From the NCBI GenBank assembly GCA_040757775.1, contig JBFLWQ010000005.1, forward strand, positions 72,295 to 136,294: a stretch of 64,000 nucleotides of DNA, given 5' to 3'. The first letter of the stretch is position 1; every line of letters starts with the position of its first letter. The stretch is from Thermodesulfobacteriota bacterium. Its GTDB lineage: Bacteria; Desulfobacterota; UBA8473. The notes beneath the pieces are model-generated. The model made no database searches. It saw only the letters and a program-made list of their open reading frames with translations, and had not been told where the DNA came from. Below, piece by piece: positions 7,679 through 44,176 of this stretch. The translations under genes were made by a program, and so were the position numbers.

Positions 7679-8752
7679 ATGCCAATATCAAAAGTGGCGG
7701 CACTAAAAACCAGCCCCGAGACAATCCTGGATGATTACAAGGACTTAATGCATCTTGCAGAATACGATAAGTTTATTTCCAAAGATAAAGACACCCTTTT
7801 GAAACTCAATCTTTCATGGACAAAGTACTTTCCTTCCTGTTCTTCCCAACCCTGGCAGGTGGAAGGGGTAGTAAAAACCCTTATTGATGACGGCTTTTCC
7901 AGAGAAAGGCTGTTCCCTGTCGAGAATAAGACCGTGGTAACCGATCCCAGAAAAGGCGCTGTTAGCAATAAGTGGCTCCCTATATTGGAGAAATATGGAC
8001 TCTCTTTCATACCGTTACCCGAGGTTAAATGGGTTAGATATGAGTTTAAAGAAAGACTTTTAAAACTGGACAAGATATTCCCTGAGGGAATTGAGATACC
8101 TGAGATGTTTATCGGGAAGAATGTTATTCACCTTCCAACGATAAAGACACATGGACATTCTATAACAACCGGAGCGGTTAAAAACTCCTTCGGGGGGCTG
8201 CTTAAAGAAGTAAGACACTATGCCCACAAGTATATTCATGAGGTTTTAGTCGATTTGATGATAATGCAGAGGGAGCTTCATCCCGGGATTTTTGCGGTAA
8301 TGGATGGAACGGTATGCGGTGATGGTGCAGGACCAAGGACAATGATCCCTGAGATTAAGAATTACATCTTAGCCAGCAGTGATTCAGTAGCCATAGATTC
8401 CATCGCTGCCAGAATGATGGGATTTAATCCCATGGAGATCCCTTATATTCGTATGTGTCATGAGATGGGACTGGGGGTTGGAAACCCTGATGATATAGAG
8501 GTAACAGGAGAAGATATTTCTGATATAAGCTTTGGTTTTAATACAAAAAGAAGTTTAGTTATATGGGGAGACCAGCTGCTTCGAAAAGGGTTTTTGAGAT
8601 TTTTGGAGAAACCCTTGCTTAATTCACCCTTAGTTTTCTGGGCACCGTTTGCCTCTAATCTTTACCATGATTATCTCTGGTATCCCCTAATTGGGAAGAA
8701 GAGAATCAGGGAATTTATGAAGACGGAGTGGGGAAAGCTGTTTAAAGGTTAA
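7679..8752 (+). CDS. DUF362 domain-containing protein
   Basis: A 357-residue soluble protein of the DUF362 family. Characteristic stretches are LKLNLSWTKYFPSCSSQPWQ at the N-terminus, HLPTIKTHGHSITTGAVKNSFGGLL in the middle, and the ASSDSVAIDSIAARMMG motif near residue 235. The ATG follows the UbiA-like stop with no gap, and GGGAG lies just upstream. No ferredoxin-type CxxCxxC cluster is present, unlike some DUF362 members. The biochemical role of DUF362 is not established; coupling to a polyprenyl-phosphate transferase suggests work in lipid-linked sugar metabolism here (inference). Confidence 0.8.
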   Translation: MPISKVAALKTSPETILDDYKDLMHLAEYDKFISKDKDTLLKLNLSWTKYFPSCSSQPWQVEGVVKTLIDDGFSRERLFPVENKTVVTDPRKGAVSNKWLPILEKYGLSFIPLPEVKWVRYEFKERLLKLDKIFPEGIEIPEMFIGKNVIHLPTIKTHGHSITTGAVKNSFGGLLKEVRHYAHKYIHEVLVDLMIMQRELHPGIFAVMDGTVCGDGAGPRTMIPEIKNYILASSDSVAIDSIAARMMGFNPMEIPYIRMCHEMGLGVGNPDDIEVTGEDISDISFGFNTKRSLVIWGDQLLRKGFLRFLEKPLLNSPLVFWAPFASNLYHDYLWYPLIGKKRIREFMKTEWGKLFKG

Positions 8753-8802
8753 GAATGATAGGCTTTAATTCTATCATTTAATCAAAATGAGACGTTTGCA
8801 AA

Positions 8803-9804
8803 ATGCGCAATTTGTATCTATTTTTTATTTCACTCTTAATATCATTCCTTTTTACCCCTTTGACCATAAGGTTGGCTAACATCTGGCAGGTAGTGGATAA
8901 TCCTGGTCAGGTCAAGATTCAAAAAGAGCCTACACCCCGCCTGGGCGGGCTTGCAATATTTTCAGGGGTTTTTCTTTCGCTCTTGTTTTATCTTATCCTG
9001 AAAGAGGGGGAGATTGGTCTTCAAGTATTGGGTGTCATGCTTGGTGCTATGGCAATCTTTCTGGTAGGCTTACTCGATGATATATTTGAGCTTAAACCCT
9101 TACTCAAGTTTTCTGGTCAGCTTTTGGCGGCTTTGATACCAATACTTTTTGGTTTAAGGATGGAAATTGCTGTGTCGCTATGGATATCTGTCCCCCTGAC
9201 CCTGTTTTTTGTCCTGGGAGCTTGTAACGCTTTAAATCTGATAGACGGTTTGGACGGGTTAGCTTCTGGGGTGACTATCCTGGTATCAACCTCCTTTCTC
9301 ACCCTCTTTTTGATACAGGGTAACCCTTTTGGTGCGCTTTTATCTTTAATGGTGATGGGGAGTAACATGGGATTTTTGAGATACAACTTCCATAAGGCTA
9401 AAACCTACATGGGAGATTCAGGGAGCCTGTTTCTGGGTTATATCCTTGCAATACTTGCAATTTTGTGCATAAATAGCTCTCAAAATAGACTGTCCTCCTT
9501 ACTGGCTGCTGTCCTGATTCTGGGGTTGCCTGTCTATGATACCGCCCTAAGCATCCTCCGCCGTTATCTTAACAAGAAGTCAATTTCCGTACCTGATCTG
9601 GGTCATTTTTATAACCGGTTGATGACAGGATACCACCTTTCCCACAGAAAGGCAGTAGGAGTATGCTGGATTATAAGTTCTGTATTTGGTCTTTTGGGGA
9701 TTTTTTCCTATATTTCAACCCTAAGGATCGGTCTGTTTATTCTCCTCTCTGTAGGGATAATATGCACCATTGGAACTTTCAGACTGGGGTTTTTAGAAGA
9801 ATAG
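8803..9804 (+). CDS. WecA/MraY-family polyprenyl-phosphate sugar-1-phosphate transferase
   Basis: A 333-residue polytopic membrane enzyme of the polyprenyl-phosphate N-acetylhexosamine-1-phosphate transferase superfamily. Seen are DNPGQVKIQKEPTPRLGGLA (cytoplasmic loop 1), LLDD with D92-D93, NLIDGLDGLA with D148 and D151, YMGDSGSLFLGY, and GHFYNRLM in the loop that helps select the donor. It links a UDP-activated amino sugar to undecaprenyl phosphate and so starts O-unit or capsule assembly. It lacks the peptide-recognition features of MraY and resembles WecA/TagO/WbpL. It is followed by the aminotransferase and the CapD-type dehydratase, which can make such amino sugars. Confidence 0.88.
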   Translation: MRNLYLFFISLLISFLFTPLTIRLANIWQVVDNPGQVKIQKEPTPRLGGLAIFSGVFLSLLFYLILKEGEIGLQVLGVMLGAMAIFLVGLLDDIFELKPLLKFSGQLLAALIPILFGLRMEIAVSLWISVPLTLFFVLGACNALNLIDGLDGLASGVTILVSTSFLTLFLIQGNPFGALLSLMVMGSNMGFLRYNFHKAKTYMGDSGSLFLGYILAILAILCINSSQNRLSSLLAAVLILGLPVYDTALSILRRYLNKKSISVPDLGHFYNRLMTGYHLSHRKAVGVCWIISSVFGLLGIFSYISTLRIGLFILLSVGIICTIGTFRLGFLEE

Positions 9805-9848
9805 ATGTGTTATAACAAAGGAGGGAGTTTAAAGAGGGAACTTTTATT

Positions 9849-11072
9849 ATGAGTAAGCTTGCCATTGATGGGGGAGTTCCTGTAAGAAGCAAGCCCTTCC
9901 CCCCCTGGCCTTATTTTTCTGAAGATGAAATCGGGGCAGTAACCAGGGTGCTTAAATCCGGGAAGGTCAATTACTGGACCGGGGAGGAAGGACATCTTTT
10001 TGAAAAGGAGTTTGCTGAATCTGTTGGTTGTAACTATGGGGTGACAGTTGCCAATGGATCGGTAGCCCTGGAGCTTGCCCTTATGGCATTGGGTATTGGT
10101 CATGGAGATGAAGTAGTTGTTACCCCCAGAACCTTTATCGCCTCGGCAAGCTGTATTGTAATCAGAGGGGCGAGGCCGGTCTTTGCCGATGTTGATTTGA
10201 ATAGCGGAAATATAAATGCAGAGACTATAAATGCAGTTTTAACACCTAAGACAAAAGCCATTATCTGTGTGCATCTAGCTGGCTGGCCCTGCGATATGGG
10301 CCCGATTATGGATCTGGCAAAAAAAAAGGGGCTTTTCGTCATCGAGGATTGTGCCCAGGCGCACGGTGCTAAATATAGAGGAAGACCTGTCGGAAGCTTT
10401 GGACATATTGCTTGTTTTTCCTTCTGCCAGGACAAGATACTGACTACAGGTGGTGAGGGCGGGATGCTCCTTACCAACGATGAAGCCGTATTTAAGAAGG
10501 CATGGAGCTATAAGGACCATGGAAAGAGTTTTGATGCGGTATATCCGCCTCTGGCGGATTCATCCAAAGCTTGCTGGCTTCACGAAAGCATCGGGACAAA
10601 CTTAAGGCTTACCGAGATGCAATCGGCTATCGGAAGGGTGGTCTTGAAGAAATTGCCCCACTGGGTAAAGCTCCGACGAAGGAATGCCGAAATATTAGAA
10701 GAGGGAGTCAAAGAATATTTTGCCTTAAGGGTTGCCATACCATCTGAAGACGTTTATAATTCATATTACAGATATTCTTCGTATATCCGCCCTGAGAGGT
10801 TAAATCCCGGTTGGGACAGGGACCGAATCGTAGCGGCTATCAATGCCGAGGGGATTCCGTCTTTTTCCTGGAACTGCTCCGAGGTATATCTGGAAAAGGC
10901 ATTTAATAACAGTCAAAAGTTAAAAGTCAAAAGTCAAAAGAGGTTGCCCAATGCGAAGGAGCTGGGGGAGACATCCCTTATATTTCTGGTGCATCCTACT
11001 TTGGCGGAAGAGGATATGGAAGATGTGCTCAAGGCGATAGATAAGGTGATGAGGGTAACGAGTCACAAGTAA
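9849..11072 (+). CDS. DegT/DnrJ/EryC1 PLP-dependent sugar aminotransferase
   Basis: A 407-residue type I PLP enzyme. The cofactor lysine is K196 in SFCQDKILTTGGEGGML, and D167 in VIEDCAQAHGA holds the pyridine nitrogen. ANGSVALELAL binds the phosphate. It transaminates a nucleotide-linked 4- or 3-keto sugar, which fits the CapD-like dehydratase next door. Two repeats lie in frame: the palindrome CCGCCTCTGGCGG (10545-10557, encoding PPLA) and four GTCAAAA-like heptamers (10912-10940, encoding SQKLKVKSQ). A third heptamer array (11055-11096) contains the stop codon. The enzyme otherwise appears intact. SD-like AGAGGGA precedes ATG 9849. Confidence 0.88.
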   Translation: MSKLAIDGGVPVRSKPFPPWPYFSEDEIGAVTRVLKSGKVNYWTGEEGHLFEKEFAESVGCNYGVTVANGSVALELALMALGIGHGDEVVVTPRTFIASASCIVIRGARPVFADVDLNSGNINAETINAVLTPKTKAIICVHLAGWPCDMGPIMDLAKKKGLFVIEDCAQAHGAKYRGRPVGSFGHIACFSFCQDKILTTGGEGGMLLTNDEAVFKKAWSYKDHGKSFDAVYPPLADSSKACWLHESIGTNLRLTEMQSAIGRVVLKKLPHWVKLRRRNAEILEEGVKEYFALRVAIPSEDVYNSYYRYSSYIRPERLNPGWDRDRIVAAINAEGIPSFSWNCSEVYLEKAFNNSQKLKVKSQKRLPNAKELGETSLIFLVHPTLAEEDMEDVLKAIDKVMRVTSHK

Positions 11073-31809: not shown

Positions 31810-32111
31810 TCAACCCCGGTCTTGCCAAACTCGCGGGTTACGCTTCGCGTGGACCACCCCAATAACGGAGATACTTTGCTCCCCTTCGATAAAAAACACT
31901 CCATAGGGAAACCGCCGCATCAGAGCGCGCCGAATGACACCTTTGTGAATAAAACTGGAAAAAGCTGAGGATTCCTTTCGATTGACGCCATCACAGCATC
32001 CACACACAAGAGAAACTGCGCACCCAAACCATGAACTTGTTGTTCATACCACTGGTATGCCTGGGCCAGATCGACTTCTGCTTCTGGTCTGACTATCAGG
32101 GGCTTTTTCAT
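31810..32111 (-). pseudogene. parE: ParE/RelE-type toxin gene with a frameshift
   Basis: On the minus strand, ATG 32111 begins LIVRPEAEVDLAQAYQWYEQQ and runs to NPQLFP, the first half of a ParE toxin. The frame then ends prematurely in FTKVSFGAL. The second half, HKGVIRRALMRRFPYGVFFIE and HAKRNPRVW, continues in another frame to the stop at 31810. The change of frame lies near 31945-31955, in a T-rich stretch. The start overlaps the antitoxin stop by ATGA. The toxin is probably inactive unless the break is an assembly error. Confidence 0.8.
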
Positions 32112-32332
32112 GATGTGAACCAGTTGCGGATTCGTTCTCTAACCTCGATCCAAGGAGCCCCAACGTCAGGATTCAGATGATATGCTTCCAGTCTGCGATC
32201 AAGTTCCAGTTTTTGATCTTCGCTGAGCAGTACTGCCTCCGGGACGGCTGCAATGCTGTCCCATATGTCTTCAACCATTTGAATCCGCTCAGCAACGCTC
32301 AGTTCAAGAATATCTGCTGTTTTAATGCTCAT
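32108..32332 (-). CDS. Addiction-module antitoxin (PF09720-type) for ParE
   Basis: A 74-residue antitoxin: MSIKTADILELSVAERIQMV, EDIWDSIAAVPEAVLLSEDQ, then LELDRRLEAYHLNP and GAPWIEVRERI. This is the pattern of the PF09720 addiction-module family found before ParE/RelE toxins. ATG 32332 is preferred because GAAGGAGAAGGT lies just before it. Its TGA overlaps the toxin ATG by four bases. The start region sits right behind the truncated HepT gene, suggesting that this module inserted there or was joined by deletion. Confidence 0.8.
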   Translation of the reverse strand: MSIKTADILELSVAERIQMVEDIWDSIAAVPEAVLLSEDQKLELDRRLEAYHLNPDVGAPWIEVRERIRNWFTS

Positions 32333-32352
32333 ACCTTCTCCTTCTCCCATCA

Positions 32353-32586
32353 TCATGTTTGATGCATGCTTACAATGCTTGCCCATGGGATTTCATTATG
32401 ACTGTCACGAAAATCTTTTGTTACGGTAGAAGCTGCTTCACCGATTATCTCAATAGACTTTATTATAGAAAGAGCAAGCATACGGTCTGAATGAAGATCA
32501 TTCTTTGTCTTATTTTCAGAGAAGGATATAGCTTCTTTTGCAGCTTCAAGCATATGCCTTAATCGTATAATATTATCCTTCCGCAT
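32353..32586 (-). pseudogene. hepT: HepT-like (DUF86) toxin gene, C-terminally truncated
   Basis: The first 70 residues match the DUF86/HepT fold: KDNIIRLRHMLEAAKEAISF, MLALSIIKSIEIIGEAASTV and IPWASIV. A normal HepT continues with MRNRLIHGY, the RX4HXY RNase motif. Here it ends in SMHQT, so the catalytic motif and the last helix are missing. The gene overlaps the start-side partner mntA by 14 bases. The truncation point abuts the antitoxin gene of the ParE module. The protein would be catalytically dead. Confidence 0.78.
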
Positions 32587-32881
32587 ACTGAACCTCTGCG
32601 ACTGAAAGCACCTCAGCTCTGAAGTAACGGCTTAAATCAGCGGGCGTTCTCAAATCTACTTTACGACCTAAAATATCTGAAAGTTCAATTTCAATGGAAG
32701 CAAGGCGCAACAAACCTACAACTTGGCCCTGCTCAAATTCAACAAGCACGTCAACATCGCTGTCCTGTGTAAAATGATCGCTTATGACCGATCCGAAGAA
32801 AGAAAGCCTGCGGATATGATGCTTTCTGCAAAATTCTGCAACTCTTTCTCCGGGTATTTCTATCCTTGTCTTAGTAGCCAT
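32573..32881 (-). CDS. mntA: MntA-type minimal nucleotidyltransferase antitoxin
   Basis: A 102-residue minimal nucleotidyltransferase. GSVISDHFTQDSDVDVLVEF holds the GSx(10)DxD active site that binds ATP and metal. MntA antitoxins inactivate HepT by adding AMP to a tyrosine. Here the partner HepT is truncated and lacks that motif, so MntA probably has no target or is a relic. The reading frame itself is intact. It is the first gene of the minus-strand pair. Confidence 0.82.
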   Translation of the reverse strand: MATKTRIEIPGERVAEFCRKHHIRRLSFFGSVISDHFTQDSDVDVLVEFEQGQVVGLLRLASIEIELSDILGRKVDLRTPADLSRYFRAEVLSVAEVQYAEG

Positions 32882-37506: not shown

Positions 37507-37535
37507 TTGACACTTGCTTCCATATCTATTATAAT
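37507..37535 (+). promoter_or_regulatory. Consensus sigma-70 promoter
   Basis: TTGACA (37507-37512) and TATAAT (37530-37535) are both perfect, with the ideal 17-base spacer. Transcription would begin near 37542 and cover the secreted-protein genes from 37659, perhaps reaching the hxs genes. It lies just upstream of a segment duplicated at 38414-38500. Confidence 0.65.
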
Positions 37536-37540
37536 TCAAT

Positions 37541-37627
37541 TAAAATTATTTATGCTCAAAAAACAAACCTGTAGATTTTCATATAAAATGGTAAGGTTGT
37601 TGATATGATACTTAAACTGTAATAAGT
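37541..37627 (+). repeat. Direct repeat copy A (leader segment)
   Basis: About 87 bases that align with 38414-38500 at roughly three quarters identity, including the shared blocks CAAAAAACAAACCT and AAGGTTGTT. In copy B the same bases encode the end of a truncated nuclease-like leader. Copy A is non-coding and forms part of the untranslated leader. Confidence 0.6.
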
Positions 37628-37658
37628 TTCTAAAAAATCTATTAAAAGAGGAGGATTT

Positions 37659-37997
37659 ATGAAAAAAGTAATGGCAGGTTTAACAACATTGATTTTACTG
37701 TTTTCATTCATTGGAGTTGTTTTAGCAAAAGATGTCCATGTTAAGGGGTATTATCGAAAAGATGGCACCTACGTACAACCTCACTATCGCACAGCCCCTA
37801 ACAAGAGCGTTTGGGATAATTACAGCACAAAGGGGAATATCAATCCTTATACGGGGAAAGAGGGCACTGTTGATCCATATAACTTAAATAACTCTTTTGG
37901 GGACAGGTCATACAAGAATAATTCGTTTAATAATAATTTATATACGCCTCAACGACCTTACAACTTTTATAGTATTGACCAGGATTCCAATGATTAA
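37659..37997 (+). CDS. Secreted small protein with HVxGYYRKDGTYVxPHxRxAP motif
   Basis: A 112-residue exported protein. A cleavable signal peptide (residues 1-23, ending VLAKD) is followed by HVKGYYRKDGTYVQPHYRTA, a motif found in many small secreted proteins of unknown role. A low-complexity Asn/Tyr-rich tail (SFGDRSYKNNSFNNNLYTP) follows. AGAGGAGG precedes ATG 37659, and the perfect promoter at 37507 should drive it. It is the first of several exported small proteins upstream of the Hxs genes. Confidence 0.75.
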   Translation: MKKVMAGLTTLILLFSFIGVVLAKDVHVKGYYRKDGTYVQPHYRTAPNKSVWDNYSTKGNINPYTGKEGTVDPYNLNNSFGDRSYKNNSFNNNLYTPQRPYNFYSIDQDSND

Positions 37998-38033
37998 TTG
38001 ATGAGATTGATTAATAACGAAGGAGGTCTTATT

Positions 38034-38276
38034 ATGAAGAAAATTAGAATTTCATTGTCTATAATTGTTTTGGTAGTTTTCTCTGTTATCTGTTTAGCCA
38101 TTGCAGCCGACTATAAATATGTAGGCTCTGCCAAGTCTAATAAGTATCACTATCCTAATTGTAGATGGGCGCAAAAAATCAAATCAGAGAATCTAGTAAC
38201 CTTTAAATCAGCAAAAGAGGCTTTAGCGACCGGGTATGTTCCTTGTAAAGTCTGTAAACCACCGACTACAGATTGA
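38034..38276 (+). CDS. Secreted Cys-rich (Ada-like metal-binding) small protein
   Basis: An 80-residue exported protein: signal peptide to about residue 25 (CLAIAAD), then YVGSAKSNKYHYPNCRWAQK and FKSAKEALATGYVPCKVCKP. Spacing of His, Cys and the CxxC resembles the zinc-binding Ada-type domain seen in small secreted proteins. ATG 38034 is used because GAAGGAGGTC stands before it. It follows the preceding gene by 36 bases. The function is unknown; metal binding is a family-based inference. Confidence 0.75.
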   Translation: MKKIRISLSIIVLVVFSVICLAIAADYKYVGSAKSNKYHYPNCRWAQKIKSENLVTFKSAKEALATGYVPCKVCKPPTTD

Positions 38277-38298
38277 TTGAAAAACTTCTACCCCATTA

Positions 38299-38502
38299 TT
38301 GGATACATATTTTATGGGACACAAACATACAAAGAAGTTATTACGGCTAATTGCGTCTCCGCTAGGAATTATTGCATTCCTTTTCCTTCTAACATGGATT
38401 CTAGTTGCACAGGATTTTTATTTATGCACAAAAAACAAACCTATTGATTTCCGTACAATTGGCAAGGTTGTTAACATGATATCCAATCTGTATAGGAGTT
38501 AA
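38299..38502 (+). pseudogene. Truncated nuclease-like N-terminal remnant
   Basis: A 67-codon frame with one membrane/signal segment (IIAFLFLLTWILVAQDFYLCT) that resembles the start of the thermonuclease at 39268 (LLVGVAVAQNLYLCT). It ends after a short unrelated tail encoded by repeat copy B (38414-38500). The nuclease domain is missing. It looks like a remnant from a duplication of the nuclease gene's beginning; it may or may not be translated. Confidence 0.5.
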
Positions 38503-38503
38503 T

Positions 38504-39259
38504 ATGAAAAGCCGAACAATAATAACATGCATCATTTTTATTGCGGTCTTAACTGGTAACGCTGTTGGCGGAAACTTGTTTTTTGCAACGATAAAAAAGG
38601 GGGACATTAGATCAGGGCCGGGGATTAACTATAAAATTGTGGGTAAAGTAAATGCATTGGAACTTCTGGAATTACCCGAAGATTTTACTGACTATAATGC
38701 AGAGTGGATACCTATTGAAACAAAAATTAAATATACCGAAGGTGAAAGACAAGGTTGGTATTCCGATGACCTTGATAGGGAGACTTTATCGACTGAAAAT
38801 CTTCAGGAAGGTAAGGAGTTAACTTTCTTTGCCAAAATTAATTTCGACTGGGTAAGAGAAAGAGGGTTCTTATTGAAAATATTACCTGAGACAAAAAAAT
38901 TATTTGGAAACTATACTTATCAAGCAGTTCTTTATAAAACTAAACAGAAGGATATAGTTTATACAAAATACCTCCATTGTAGCATAGGCAAAATTGGACG
39001 TGAATCCCATGATGACAATTTAAAATTACGAATAGCAACGATAAGAGCTAATCCAACTTGGTCAAACGAAATGATAAAGATTATTCTAAATGAAAAAATC
39101 AAATTGGGAATGACTAAGGAACAAATCGTCGCATCTTGGGGGTATCCTAAGAGTATAAACAGGAATGTAGGCAGTTGGGGTATTTATGAACAATGGGTTT
39201 ATGGCAATAGCGTATATCTGTATTTGGAAAATGGAATTTTAAAATCATTTCAAGACTAG
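38504..39259 (+). CDS. Secreted SH3-domain protein with BamE-like C-terminus
   Basis: A 251-residue exported protein. The signal peptide (to about residue 22) is followed by a bacterial SH3 domain, FATIKKGDIRSGPGINYKIV to about residue 90. A middle region of unknown fold leads to a C-terminal SmpA/BamE-like unit, KLGMTKEQIVASWGYPKSIN, ending in YLENGILKSFQD. SH3 domains often bind peptidoglycan. ATAGGAGTT precedes ATG 38504. It is followed within nine bases by the thermonuclease gene, so it belongs to the same transcript. Confidence 0.75.
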   Translation: MKSRTIITCIIFIAVLTGNAVGGNLFFATIKKGDIRSGPGINYKIVGKVNALELLELPEDFTDYNAEWIPIETKIKYTEGERQGWYSDDLDRETLSTENLQEGKELTFFAKINFDWVRERGFLLKILPETKKLFGNYTYQAVLYKTKQKDIVYTKYLHCSIGKIGRESHDDNLKLRIATIRANPTWSNEMIKIILNEKIKLGMTKEQIVASWGYPKSINRNVGSWGIYEQWVYGNSVYLYLENGILKSFQD

Positions 39260-39267
39260 AAAGAAGT

Positions 39268-39753
39268 ATGAGTAAAATATTGCGATGGAGCATTAAGCCT
39301 TACCTCTTGGTGTCAATAATCTCCTTACTTCTTGTTGGGGTAGCTGTCGCACAAAACCTTTACTTATGCACCCGTGCCGTTGATGGTGATACCATTGTCG
39401 TTAATATAGAAGGAAAACATGAGAATGTCCGTCTTATTGGAGTTGATACCCCTGAAACCGTTCATCCCTTTAAGCCAGTTGAATACTATGGCAAAGAAGC
39501 ATCTGAGTTTACAAAAAGTATGGTTGAAGGTAAGCAAGTCCGTCTTGAATATGACTGGCAAAAAAGGGATAAATATGGAAGGCTTTTAGCCTATGTATTC
39601 CTGACAGACGGCACTTTTATAAATGCTGAGATTGTTAAACAGGGTTACGGGCATGCATATACGAGATTCCCTTTCAAGTATTTGGAGGAGTTTAGAAGAT
39701 ATGAGAGGGAGGCAAGAGAAAATAATAGAGGACTATGGAAAGAAGATAAATAG
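39268..39753 (+). CDS. Secreted thermonuclease (SNase family)
   Basis: A 161-residue exported nuclease. An N-terminal hydrophobic signal (about residues 12-29) is followed by the staphylococcal-nuclease domain: RAVDGDTIVVNIEG, VRLIGVDTPETVHP (catalytic Arg, Asp and Glu), DKYGRLLAYVFLTDG (second Arg) and YEREARENNRGLW. It cleaves DNA or RNA with calcium outside the cytoplasm. Its TAG is part of the TAGGAGA ribosome binding site of hxsD, which begins 12 bases later, so the nuclease and the Hxs genes share a transcript. Confidence 0.88.
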   Translation: MSKILRWSIKPYLLVSIISLLLVGVAVAQNLYLCTRAVDGDTIVVNIEGKHENVRLIGVDTPETVHPFKPVEYYGKEASEFTKSMVEGKQVRLEYDWQKRDKYGRLLAYVFLTDGTFINAEIVKQGYGHAYTRFPFKYLEEFRRYEREARENNRGLWKEDK

Positions 39754-39765
39754 GAGATAATGTAA

Positions 39766-40083
39766 ATGGAAATGATGAAAGAATTAGAGAGCGGCAAATT
39801 ATTATTAAAAGTTAATAAGAACCTTTATAAATCAAAAGAAGTCATTTTTTCTGCAGCATATAAATTTACAGACAACTGCTATATCCAAATTGACTCAATA
39901 GATCCCGATTATTATGGTGTTTTTTTTCAGGTAAAGAAATCGGATATAGATTTAATTTCCGAGGTAAACGAGTTTTGTAATGAACTTATTGACCAGCAAA
40001 TCCGATACGATCTCAATAATTCAAACAGTTCAATAAAAGAACTAATCATAAAAAAAGCCTTTTCCCCATTTCAAAATGATTAA
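39766..40083 (+). CDS. hxsD: His-Xaa-Ser system protein HxsD
   Basis: A 105-residue protein matching HxsD: AAYKFTDNCYIQIDSIDPDY, FFQVKKSD, and NELIDQQIRYDLNNSNSSIK followed by ELIIKKAFS. HxsD always accompanies the two radical SAM proteins HxsB and HxsC; by analogy with other modified-peptide systems it may help recognise the substrate (inference). TAGGAGA (39751-39757) precedes ATG 39766. Its last eight bases overlap the hxsB start. The identification rests on the characteristic LxDQQxRYDL segment together with the full gene set. Confidence 0.88.
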   Translation: MEMMKELESGKLLLKVNKNLYKSKEVIFSAAYKFTDNCYIQIDSIDPDYYGVFFQVKKSDIDLISEVNEFCNELIDQQIRYDLNNSNSSIKELIIKKAFSPFQND

Positions 40084-41541
40084 TCAAAATAATTCAACCC
40101 ACTATATCATTCTGCCTTTTAATTTTTTAAGACATAATAAAAATCACATCCTTTTAGTTAATTTAGTAGGAGAATATTTATCCTTATCAGAAAGTGACTT
40201 TGAAAAATTAATTACCTACAGTATTGGGGAAACATCGGCACTTTATCCATACTTAAAAGGAAAGCATATTATTGCTGAGACAATATCCGACCCTGCAATT
40301 GAGCTTCTTTCGGTTAAATACAGAACAAAAAAAGAATTTCTCTCTTTTTTTACATCCTTGCATATGATTGAATTAACCATAAGATGTAACCAAAAATGTA
40401 TCTATTGTCATGCATCTTCAAAGGATTTAGACAAAACCAAATATGATATGAGCATAGATACTTCCGAAAAGGTAGTCGAAGTTATCTTTATGAGTCCCTC
40501 AAATTCTATAAAAATAGAGTTCCAAGGTGGTGAACCTCTTCTAAATTATGAAACCATCAAGTACATAATAGAATACGCAAACAAGTTGGCGTTACTTAAA
40601 AAGAAAGAAATAGAATTTGTGGTATGCACTAATTTAACATTAGTAACTAATGAAATGTTAGAATATTTTGCTGACAAGAATATCTGTATTTCCACTTCTC
40701 TAGATGGTCCAGAACATGTTCATAATTTCAATAGACGCTATCGTAATGGAGCAGCTACTTATGAAGATGTCATTAGAAACTTGGAAAAAGCTAAAAAATT
40801 TATTGACCCATCAAGAATATCAGCATTGATGACTCCCACAGAATATAGTCTTAATTACGTAGAAGAGATTGTGGACGAATACATTAGAAATGGATTTAAT
40901 TCAATCTTCATCCGCCCGCTAAATCCTTTTGGGTATGCTCTGCAGAAAATTAGTGCAATTGGATATGATCCCAATAAATTTGTTACATTTTATAAGAGGA
41001 TACTCGAATATATTATCAAGATTAATCTGGAAGGATATTTCTTAGAAGAGTCATTCACCTCTCTTTTACTTACAAGAATATTAACCCATTTTCCACCGGT
41101 TTTGTCGATCTCCAATTTCCTGCCGGAACAGGTATTTCTGGTGTGATGTATGGCTATAATGGAAATGTCTATCTTTCGGATGAATCAAGAATGCTAGCAC
41201 ATATGGGAGATGAAAAGTTTTGCATAGGTAATGTTAACGAAGATTCATATAAGGACATCTTTTACAATGATATTATTTTGGATATTATAAACAATTCAAT
41301 GGCTGAATCGTTACCTGGCTGTTCTGATTGTGCATTCCAAATGTATTGCGGGAACGACCCTATACGTAATTTTGCGACACAGAAAGATATTATAGGCCAC
41401 AGACCTACAAGCGATTTATGCCTAATTCATAAACAAATAATAAAATATCTTTTTGAAATTGTTTTAAAAAATGACTCAACTCAAATGGATGTTTTCTGGT
41501 CTTGGATAACTGATCGCAGCCTTTCTGAAATAAGGATTTAA
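40076..41541 (+). pseudogene. hxsB: His-Xaa-Ser system radical SAM protein HxsB, with a one-base frame break
   Basis: From ATG 40076 the frame encodes the N-terminal half (HYIILPFNFLRHNKNHILLV), the radical SAM cluster site CNQKCIYCH (C104, C108, C111), the FQGGEPLLN motif and most of the barrel. Near 41085 the frame breaks. The other frame reads NPFSTGFVDLQFPAGTGISG, then MYGYNGNVYLSDESRMLAHM and a SPASM-like Cys-rich end (CSDCAFQMYCGNDP) to TAA 41541. A C missing from the run at 41085-41087 (ACCCC to ACCC) restores the fusion. The defect is either real or an assembly error. Translated without repair, it would lose the C-terminal Cys cluster. Confidence 0.85.
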
Positions 41542-41548
41542 TGTTTAA

Positions 41549-42688
41549 ATGCTAACTCTTCAGGGTATTTCGAAAAACATAAAAGAGCCGATAATCGGAA
41601 AACTTTCTTTTTCGCCTGTAGAAAAAGAAGAGATATGGCAAACAATATATGTAATTTCTGAGTCAATTCAACATGAATTAAAGGGTTGTATTGGATTAGT
41701 GGTGAGAAATAATGAAATTGAAGATGCATTAAGACAACATAATCTTCCTCTGGTTTACAACGTTAAAAATATAGATTTGTTATCGGATGGGGATGTTATT
41801 GAAATATTACCTAATGGTTTAATTAATGTCCTATATCGAATAAACTCAGATGATAACTTAATCTTTGTTACGTCGAAGTGTGATTGTAAATGCATAATGT
41901 GTCCTCAGCCGATTGATTATGATGAAGGGGATTTAACGGAATTAAATCTAAAACTTATTTCTTCAATAAGCACATCAACAAAGGAGTTAGCTTTGACTGG
42001 TGGTGAGCCAACTATAGTAGGCAATGATTTATTTCGTTTAATTCTTGCATGTAAAAATCTACTCCCCGACACTTCTTTACTTTTGTTAACTAACGGAAGA
42101 AAATTTAGTAATTTTGAATATACACACATTTTCAGCAGTATTGGTCATCCCGATATTACTATTGGGATAGCTCTTTATGGTGATAATGATATTGAACATG
42201 ATTTTATTGTTGGTTCAAAAGGCGCTTTTAATGACACTGTTAGAGGCATAATTAATTTGGCTTCATTTAGTAATCCAATTGAGATTCGGATAGTGACCCA
42301 TAAATTTACGTACAATAGGTTGCTAAGAATCTCTGATTTTATCTATAGGAATATGACATTTGTAAAACACATTGTGTTTATGGGGTTAGAAACTATTTGG
42401 CGTGCAAGGGAAAACTTAAAAATCCTTTGGATTGAGCCAGAGGAATTGATTCCCCATTTAGAAGAAGCTATTCATTATTTGATCCAAAGAGGAATGAATG
42501 TATCTATTTATAATATTCCATTGTGTTTATTACCAGAAAAATTTTGGATTTATGCGAGGAAATCTATAACGGGTTGGAAGAATTCGTTTGATTTAAAATG
42601 TTTTGAATGTTCAGTAAAGGAGGAGTGTTCGGGGTTATTTGATTCGGGGGTTGACATATATAGGAAATATCTAAAACCGATCTATTAG
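41549..42688 (+). CDS. hxsC: His-Xaa-Ser system radical SAM protein HxsC
   Basis: A 379-residue radical SAM enzyme matching HxsC. After an N-terminal domain of about 100 residues comes CDCKCIMCPQP (C111, C115, C118), which binds the 4Fe-4S cluster and SAM. LALTGGEPTIVG and LLLLTNGRKFS follow. The end carries CFECSVKEECSGLFDSG, a further Cys cluster typical of HxsC. It should work with HxsB to modify HxsA. It begins eight bases after the hxsB stop. The hxsA gene faces it, ending only four bases away. Confidence 0.92.
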   Translation: MLTLQGISKNIKEPIIGKLSFSPVEKEEIWQTIYVISESIQHELKGCIGLVVRNNEIEDALRQHNLPLVYNVKNIDLLSDGDVIEILPNGLINVLYRINSDDNLIFVTSKCDCKCIMCPQPIDYDEGDLTELNLKLISSISTSTKELALTGGEPTIVGNDLFRLILACKNLLPDTSLLLLTNGRKFSNFEYTHIFSSIGHPDITIGIALYGDNDIEHDFIVGSKGAFNDTVRGIINLASFSNPIEIRIVTHKFTYNRLLRISDFIYRNMTFVKHIVFMGLETIWRARENLKILWIEPEELIPHLEEAIHYLIQRGMNVSIYNIPLCLLPEKFWIYARKSITGWKNSFDLKCFECSVKEECSGLFDSGVDIYRKYLKPIY

Positions 42689-42692
42689 AGGG

Positions 42693-43244
42693 CTATTTCC
42701 ACATCAACGTTTTAATGTCTTCCAATTTAATCCATTCTTTTGTTTTATTAATATTTTCAGTAACTTCAATAGCATCATCTCTACACTCGGTTACTAAACC
42801 ATTAAATCCATCGCCATTCTTTAAAACAATTAAAACTTCGTGTTGATATAGTTTGTATGGGACTTTGATCCATTCAGTAGTTGTTTTCCATTTCCTTATG
42901 TGTGAATCAGAAGGCTTAGGAGGAAGTATGACATCCGAATGTGTGCTCGGTTTATAAGTTGATCCAGAATAATGAGAAGCATGAGAACGATGAGAAGCAT
43001 GAGAACGATGAGAAGAGTGAGAGCGATGTCCTGCAAACATACCATCAGTATTGAAATCAGCTTGTTTTAATACAAGAGGAGGCGGTTTTTTAATTAGCTC
43101 AATTTTGTCTAAACTGGTAATTTTAAGAATATCGGGAATATGATATTCGTTAGATACTTTAGTTAGTTTCTTAGACTCAGCAGAAGAAGAAAAGATAAGC
43201 AATACTGAAATGACACCAAGAATGGTTTCATATAATTTCTTCAT
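42693..43244 (-). CDS. hxsA: His-Xaa-Ser repeat protein HxsA
   Basis: A 183-residue exported protein, the presumed substrate of the Hxs system. A signal peptide (residues 1-23) is followed by a spacer ending in DFNTDGMFAG, then seven uninterrupted His-Xaa-Ser triplets at residues 73-93 (positions 42966-43028). An exact 18-base tandem duplication lies inside the array. A C-terminal domain of about 60 residues (HEVLIVLKNGDGFNGLVTEC, ending IKLEDIKTLMWK) looks like a small Sm/SH3-type beta barrel. The gene is on the opposite strand, tail to tail with hxsC, so it must have its own promoter. Confidence 0.92.
   Translation of the reverse strand: MKKLYETILGVISVLLIFSSSAESKKLTKVSNEYHIPDILKITSLDKIELIKKPPPLVLKQADFNTDGMFAGHRSHSSHRSHASHRSHASHYSGSTYKPSTHSDVILPPKPSDSHIRKWKTTTEWIKVPYKLYQHEVLIVLKNGDGFNGLVTECRDDAIEVTENINKTKEWIKLEDIKTLMWK
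42966..43028 (-). repeat. His-Xaa-Ser codon array in hxsA
   Basis: Seven consecutive HxS codon triplets with Xaa = Arg, Ser, Arg, Ala, Arg, Ala, Tyr. The unit CATCGTTCTCATGCTTCT occurs twice in perfect tandem, a sign of recent copy-number change. Confidence 0.9.
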
Positions 43245-43523
43245 TGAATTGCCCTATAAAGATTTGTTTCTTTGAGGCAGGAATCTACAAAATCTCTTAA
43301 TAAACTTTATTCCAATGAATTTATTTTAGCCCTCCTTGCCAGCTTAACAGGACTTCTACCCAGAAGTGTTTCAATGTCATTAGTTTTCTCGTAAGCATGC
43401 GCAGAAATTTTATCATTTCTCCCATTATATTTATGTTTAAACTATACTGCCAAATATTGATACTTTTTGTCAAGGAATTTTTACATTTTAGAGGGGGGTA
43501 GACAATCAAAAAAGGAGTAACCT

Positions 43524-43712
43524 ATGGCCAAAAAATTAGACACTAGAGAAATGGTTGATTCTGAGGAACTTCTAATGTCGGAAATCATAACAACCGAAGC
43601 ACTTATAAACGTCTTAGATAGAAAAGGGCTTATTACTAAAGCAGAAGTACTTGAGGAAATAAAGGCTGTAAAGGAAAGAGTAGTAAAAAATGAGGCAGAC
43701 GACAAAAGCTAA
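43524..43712 (+). CDS. Small hypothetical protein
   Basis: A 62-residue charged, helical protein: MVDSEELLMSEIITTEALIN, VLDRKGLITKAEVLEEIKAV, then KERVVKNEADDKS. The segment DRKGLITKAEVLEEIK recurs in small bacterial proteins of unknown function. AAAAAAGGAG before ATG 43524 supports translation. It stands alone beyond hxsA, upstream of decayed sequence. No function can be given. Confidence 0.65.
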   Translation: MAKKLDTREMVDSEELLMSEIITTEALINVLDRKGLITKAEVLEEIKAVKERVVKNEADDKS

Positions 43713-43966
43713 CAATTCTTGACATTGCAGAGATAAAGAGGATTTAGAATGAATTCCAATAGCAACCACAGACTAAAAAGTTTCTGTTATATTCCATCAG
43801 CATCTTGACGGTCTTACTTTCCACCGACTTATCAATAGCTAAACAGGTGACACCTTTGAAAGAGATTACACCTACCATGCTAGAGAGATAGAAAACAAGG
43901 TTTCATGCAGAGTCAATGCTTTAGAACGGGTAAAAAGGCTTCTTTTAGAGGAGTTGTTGACATATC
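43713..43966 (+). other. Spacer holding an unassigned decayed coding fragment
   Basis: From 43849, one frame reads DTFERDYTYHAREIENKVSC and then NALERVKRLLLEELLTYLE. It looks protein-coding, but a stop lies just upstream and there is no start codon, and the family is not recognised. It is followed directly by the comEC tail, so this stretch is probably gene debris. Confidence 0.4.
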
Positions 43967-44176
43967 TTGAGATCCAGTACAGAGGAGTTTTTAGGCAAGG
44001 TTCATCCCACTTATGCTGTATTTAGCGTTGGATATAAAAACAGATTTGGTTTTCCCCATAAGAGGATTCTTGAGAGATATAGAGATTTAGGCAGCAGAAC
44101 ATATCGGACGGACAAAGACGGTGCAATTACAGTGGTAACAGATGGAGTGCTATTAAGAGTAGAGAAGTTTTTCTGA
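43967..44176 (+). pseudogene. comEC: C-terminal remnant of ComEC/Rec2
   Basis: A 69-codon stretch encodes EEFLGKVHPTYAVFSVGYKN, RFGFPHKRILERYRDLGSRT and YRTDKDGAITVVTDG. This is the end of the metallo-beta-lactamase-like domain of the DNA-uptake channel ComEC. The rest of the gene (a full ComEC has about 750 residues) is missing, with a stop just upstream in the same frame. It therefore marks a deleted comEC gene. Confidence 0.8.

Follow-up and report, generated by a model that had tools for sequence, protein, structure and literature searches.

A foreign segment of 6,420 bp has replaced comEC, the gene of the DNA-uptake channel, in a Thermodesulfobacteriota bacterium (GCA_040757775.1). The segment lies in the analysed window, a 64,000-nt stretch of contig JBFLWQ010000005.1, and carries a His-Xaa-Ser (Hxs) peptide-modification module directly behind an exported nuclease gene. 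Exported nucleases of unrelated families recur beside hxs in other genomes. The preferred reading, to which a probability of roughly 0.45 is given, is that of a laterally acquired cassette in which an hxs maturation module joined an exported-nuclease cassette and which replaced comEC; its products would act on extracellular or incoming DNA.

Gene content of the segment

The original prediction described a complete Hxs system in a unit from 37507 to 43244. The hxs genes do lie inside these limits, but the foreign DNA begins at about 37547 and reaches 43966, while the site at 37507, which had been counted as part of the locus, belongs to the displaced native comEC. The replacement of comEC by the segment had been overlooked. 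The features are:

37507..37535, + strand: promoter-like TTGACA-17-TATAAT, native comEC promoter (12/12 consensus matches)
37547..43966, no strand: foreign segment in place of comEC, 6,420 bp (limits from the L150 homology; GC content 33.5%)
37659..37997, + strand: small exported protein of the KGYYRKDGTYVQPHYRT type (relatives close to hxs in L086 and L097)
38034..38276, + strand: small exported protein with an Ada_Zn_binding-like domain (PF02805, 34 bits, cut-off 23); start codon chosen by comparison with the paralogue in L206
38299..38502, + strand: SNase gene copy cut down to its 5' part, signal peptide retained (repeats D1 and D2; comparison with L206)
38504..39259, + strand: exported protein with a weak SH3_3 match (17.7 bits, below the cut-off of 27)
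39268..39753, + strand: exported staphylococcal-nuclease-family protein, SNase (PF00565, 100.3 bits, cut-off 21)
39766..40083, + strand: hxsD (TIGR03976, 78.4 bits, cut-off 50; predicted fold, pLDDT 90)
40076..41146, + strand: hxsB N-terminal part, radical SAM domain (TIGR03978 profile 1-327, 380.9 bits)
41143..41541, + strand, -1 frame: hxsB C-terminal part, SPASM domain (TIGR03978 profile 346-466, 158.8 bits)
41549..42688, + strand: hxsC (TIGR03977, 331 bits, cut-off 267.9)
42693..43244, - strand: hxsA-like gene (signal peptide, seven HxS triplets, C-terminal small beta barrel)
43524..43712, + strand: small KAEVLEE-type protein (relatives beside hxs in L033 and in the nuclease cassette of L206)
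43967..44176, + strand: remnant of about 70 codons from the 3' end of native comEC, which code for the end of the MBL domain (87% DNA identity to sister-species comEC)

The secreted nuclease and the other exported proteins that had been placed ahead of hxsD are indeed there. The SNase belongs to PF00565 and has the catalytic motifs DGDT, RLIGVDTPE and DKYGR; an additional degenerate SNase copy lies at 37546-37621. HxsD and HxsC both exceed their NCBIfam cut-offs, and the CxxxCxxC motifs fall where they had been predicted, at C104/C108/C111 in HxsB and C111/C115/C118 in HxsC. The hxsA and hxsC genes are convergent, and their stop codons are 4 nt apart. All four hxs genes can be recognised, but the set cannot be called complete as sequenced, since a frameshift splits hxsB into two ORFs, between which its profile match is divided. 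An Rfam scan of the segment matched no RNA element.

Replacement of comEC

DNA homology to the sister-species locus L150 reaches 37546, about 3 nt short of the comEC start codon, and restarts at 43967. The segment has a GC content of 33.5%, against 39.1% for the window. The promoter-like site is nearly identical upstream of comEC in the sister-species loci L149 and L150, and the remnant matches the C-terminal part of the L102 ComEC with 55.7 bits. In the sister species G003 an intact comEC lies between an acyl-CoA dehydrogenase and a response regulator, the same flanks as at the window locus. The ComEC competence domain was found in the sister species G001, G003 and G004, and none is left in the bacterium's own genome (completeness estimate 100%). 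Together these alignments support a replacement of comEC by foreign DNA in which the comEC promoter was kept, so that it now precedes the foreign genes. HxsB above the cut-off was found in none of the other searched genomes of the genus or family, and of the 395 genomes of the phylum 10 were found to carry hxsC.

A second case was found in L102, a locus from a genome titled Thermodesulfovibrionia (Nitrospirota), where SNase-hxsD-hxsB-hxsC and a convergent hxsA lie between N- and C-terminal fragments of ComEC. The two cassettes share 71% DNA identity across 3.4 kb, and in the HxsB tree the window, L102 and L115 group together with full support. The two comEC disruptions look like separate events, because their breakpoints differ and the comEC remnant in the window is native. 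With comEC-splitting cases numbering two, no firm statistics can be drawn, and misassembly of the L102 contig is possible in principle.

Loss of comEC as a general trait of hxs hosts was considered and rejected, because among 40 other hxs genomes searched at least 35 keep the competence domain above the cut-off (a count that includes G170, the broken comEC copy of L102), nearly always within a long open frame. This counts against the preferred reading.

The break in hxsB

Alignment with homologues shows that one base is absent near 41090, within THFP|TGFVDLQ, and hxsB is uninterrupted in four relatives of the same phylum. The N-terminal ORF by itself reaches 380.9 bits against the TIGR03978 cut-off of 370, with the gene split in two ORFs. 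If the base call is right, the frameshift points to a loss of maturation in this bacterium.

That the locus is here no more than a decaying relic without present function is quite possible, if short of an even chance. The frameshift and the truncated SNase copies both fit decay, and an unrelated genome, G045, has an IS21-type insertion in hxsB (istA/istB, L035 8485-10848). However, dN against L102 is far below dS, itself near saturation, in hxsD, both hxsB parts, hxsC and hxsA. The frameshift therefore either arose recently or is a sequencing error. All other frames are still open, and the deletion may be an error of sequencing or assembly.

That the two ORFs work in their present form, whether through programmed -1 frameshifting or as a pair of subunits produced by stop-start coupling, is very improbable. 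They overlap as GTGATG (TGATG at 41144-41148) and the C-terminal part is still constrained, but intact homologues have no break at the corresponding place, no canonical slippery heptamer is visible, and without frameshifting about 18 conserved residues between the two parts would be missing. Programmed frameshifting is not supported.

HxsA and HxsD

HxsA has the seven predicted HxS triplets (residues 73-93, one per three residues), and its membership stands on these repeats and on context. Its score of 57.9 bits is under the TIGR03979 cut-off of 121.65, and the protein is therefore called HxsA-like. All nine other HxsA proteins of hxs loci that were tested are also under this cut-off. The full-length fold prediction has low confidence except for the C-terminal domain, a predicted small barrel resembling Hfq/Sm (a weak match, best E 2.2e-3). 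Nucleic-acid binding does not follow from this predicted resemblance. At other loci some HxsA proteins have PG_binding_1 or bacterial Ig-like domains at the C-terminus, which suggests envelope attachment.

HxsD is predicted to form a small alpha/beta fold, for which structure comparison found no close solved relative. The predicted fold gives no support to HxsD as a winged-helix peptide-recognition element.

HxsA could also be a secreted antimicrobial or metal-binding peptide, with the nuclease an independent weapon or nutrient scavenger. A small exported His-rich protein with radical SAM maturation would suit such a product, as in RiPP pathways, and the His-rich repeats might bind metal. The explanation is improbable: none of the segment's genes was recognised as one for a transporter, a protease or immunity, and HxsA proteins often carry the envelope-anchoring ends described above, unlike a released peptide.

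Nucleases beside hxs

The adjoining nuclease had been taken as a hint of function, and this idea gained ground, as several lineages show the link at a frequency far beyond chance and with nuclease families that are unrelated to each other. Two phyla, that of the window and that of L102, provided 16 assessable hxs genomes. Of these, 8 have an SNase gene no more than 3 kb from hxs, where 0.14 would be expected (P 1.3e-13, a value that overstates independence since related loci share history), and 9 have one within 6 kb. Across 123 hxs loci, 23 nuclease ORF matches were found in the 862 kb of sequence up to 4.5 kb away and none in the 532 kb at 4.5-9 kb, although the queries were partly taken from those loci, so that near matches are favoured. 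The contrast has a binomial P of 1.6e-5 with hits counted, subject to the same shared history, and compares near with far positions around hxs, not hxs with other cargo of mobile elements. The matches represent about 19 distinct loci of the 123; most hxs loci have no close nuclease, which again speaks against the preferred reading.

Four unrelated families are involved: SNase, Endonuclease_NS (L040, L048, L111, L164, L228), PLD-like proteins (L059, L114) and Endonuclease I. The last (PF04231), the family of Dns, replaces SNase beside hxs in G081 and G664, both of one genus. SNase is also present at the plasmid hxs loci of Nostoc and Methylobacter. The arrangement is operon-like at several loci: in the window, L102, L048 and L180 a gene for SNase, Endonuclease_NS or Endonuclease I immediately precedes hxsD, and in L212 an SNase follows hxsC after 15 nt.

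The hxs-adjacent SNases do not form one dedicated clade. They are intermixed with unlinked SNases of the same genomes, which implies repeated recruitment, and the HxsB tree likewise requires several changes in nuclease linkage. The recurrence of exported nucleases at these loci is a strong hint that the role of Hxs concerns DNA outside the cell.

Several neighbouring proteins were seen in passing. In L164 (7619-8881) SNase and Endonuclease_NS domains are fused in one exported protein directly after hxsA. Two unrelated exported enzymes by hxs, a PLD-like protein in L114 (6377-7177) and an SNase in L033 (7638-8330), have the same Ada_Zn-like C-terminal domain. The neighbour of hxsA in L097 (13458-14522) is a protein predicted to be exported and to have a metallo-beta-lactamase fold, and it shares the DVGQGD motif with the C-terminal domain of ComEC.

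Cassette origin and mobility

The same genome contains a second cassette (L206, on contig C1 of G000) with small exported, Ada_Zn-like, SNase and KAEVLEE-type proteins but no hxs. These genes share 74-82% DNA identity with those of the window, and the window locus therefore looks like that nuclease cassette with an hxs module added. The L206 cassette (8446-10488) is near RadC-like, DnaN-like and methyltransferase genes, and similar genes (RadC-DnaN-ParB) are found beside hxs in L164. At 31920-32881 of the window, small minus-strand ORFs resemble by eye toxin-antitoxin pairs (RelE/ParE-like with a partner; HepT/MntA-like).

Other hxs loci lie on plasmids or in phage records, or have integrases, mobilisation genes or transposases as neighbours, which fits the mobile cargo of the preferred reading. 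Hxs and exported nucleases might also be common cargo of mobile elements that merely travel together, without joint function, the loss of comEC being incidental. Such hitchhiking would account for the mobile settings of hxs, for the cassette without hxs in the bacterium's own genome and for the absence of a nearby nuclease from most hxs loci. We consider it unlikely on balance, since the sharp fall of matches with distance (23 near, 0 far) is unlike loose co-carriage, and operon-like spacing with four unrelated nuclease families at one place also argues against it.

Proposed function and known systems

In the preferred reading, HxsB and HxsC, with HxsD as accessory, would be the maturases of the seven HxS triplets in HxsA, perhaps introducing His-to-Ser i/i+2 cross-links. 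HxsA would be exported and then retained at the envelope by its C-terminal domain, where it and the exported nuclease would jointly target extracytoplasmic DNA. Carried as mobile cargo, the two would break down incoming DNA. Where comEC is lost, DNA uptake would end altogether and transformation may be blocked, from which the element might gain.

The locus shares with the Hxs system (TIGR03976-TIGR03979) the order hxsD-hxsB-hxsC, the two radical SAM maturases and the exported HxS-repeat protein. It differs in the frameshifted hxsB, in an hxsA that is read from the other strand and whose product has a predicted small barrel as C-terminal domain, in the exported SNase directly upstream and in its insertion in place of comEC.

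For the cross-link, the nearest comparison is with triceptide enzymes (3-CyFEs), of which MscB forms a Phe-to-Ser i/i+2 cross-link (PMC11002830). A radical SAM/SPASM maturase and the aromatic-x-Ser substrate spacing (i to i+2) are common to both, and a His-to-Ser equivalent is plausible by analogy, the HxS spacing being the sole feature compatible with an i to i+2 cross-link. Unlike the 3-CyFEs, HxsB is an equivalog family of its own, the residue is histidine and not Phe/Trp, and two maturases are paired.

Mobile elements are known to disrupt competence genes, including comEC, and to secrete DNases, for example CJIE1 Dns and IdeA (PMC4774983). The C-terminal domain of ComEC is itself a nuclease with an important part in transformation (PMC8579336). 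With transformation-blocking elements the segment has in common a competence gene destroyed by foreign DNA and an exported nuclease on that DNA. It differs in that no recognisable mobility gene was found within the 6.4 kb (family profiles matched no integrase or transposase among its ORFs), in that comEC is partly deleted and not simply interrupted, and in that a peptide-modification module is carried. The missing integrase and the frameshifted hxsB both count against the preferred reading.

A wider version, in which Hxs systems are mobile modules whose radical-SAM-modified envelope protein and interchangeable exported nucleases control or destroy incoming DNA, some of them replacing comEC, is doubtful at present. 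In the literature searched, which covered few subscription journals, no paper establishes the chemistry or role of Hxs (two name the system, neither giving a function), and neither the nuclease linkage nor the comEC replacement appears in any searchable paper. The Hxs family itself is known and widespread; the linkage and the replacement are the new findings here. The operon-like pairing with unrelated exported nucleases offers a testable functional hypothesis for Hxs, with named operons. Should the link to comEC prove true, peptide-modifying enzymes would gain a place in the contest of mobile elements with natural transformation.
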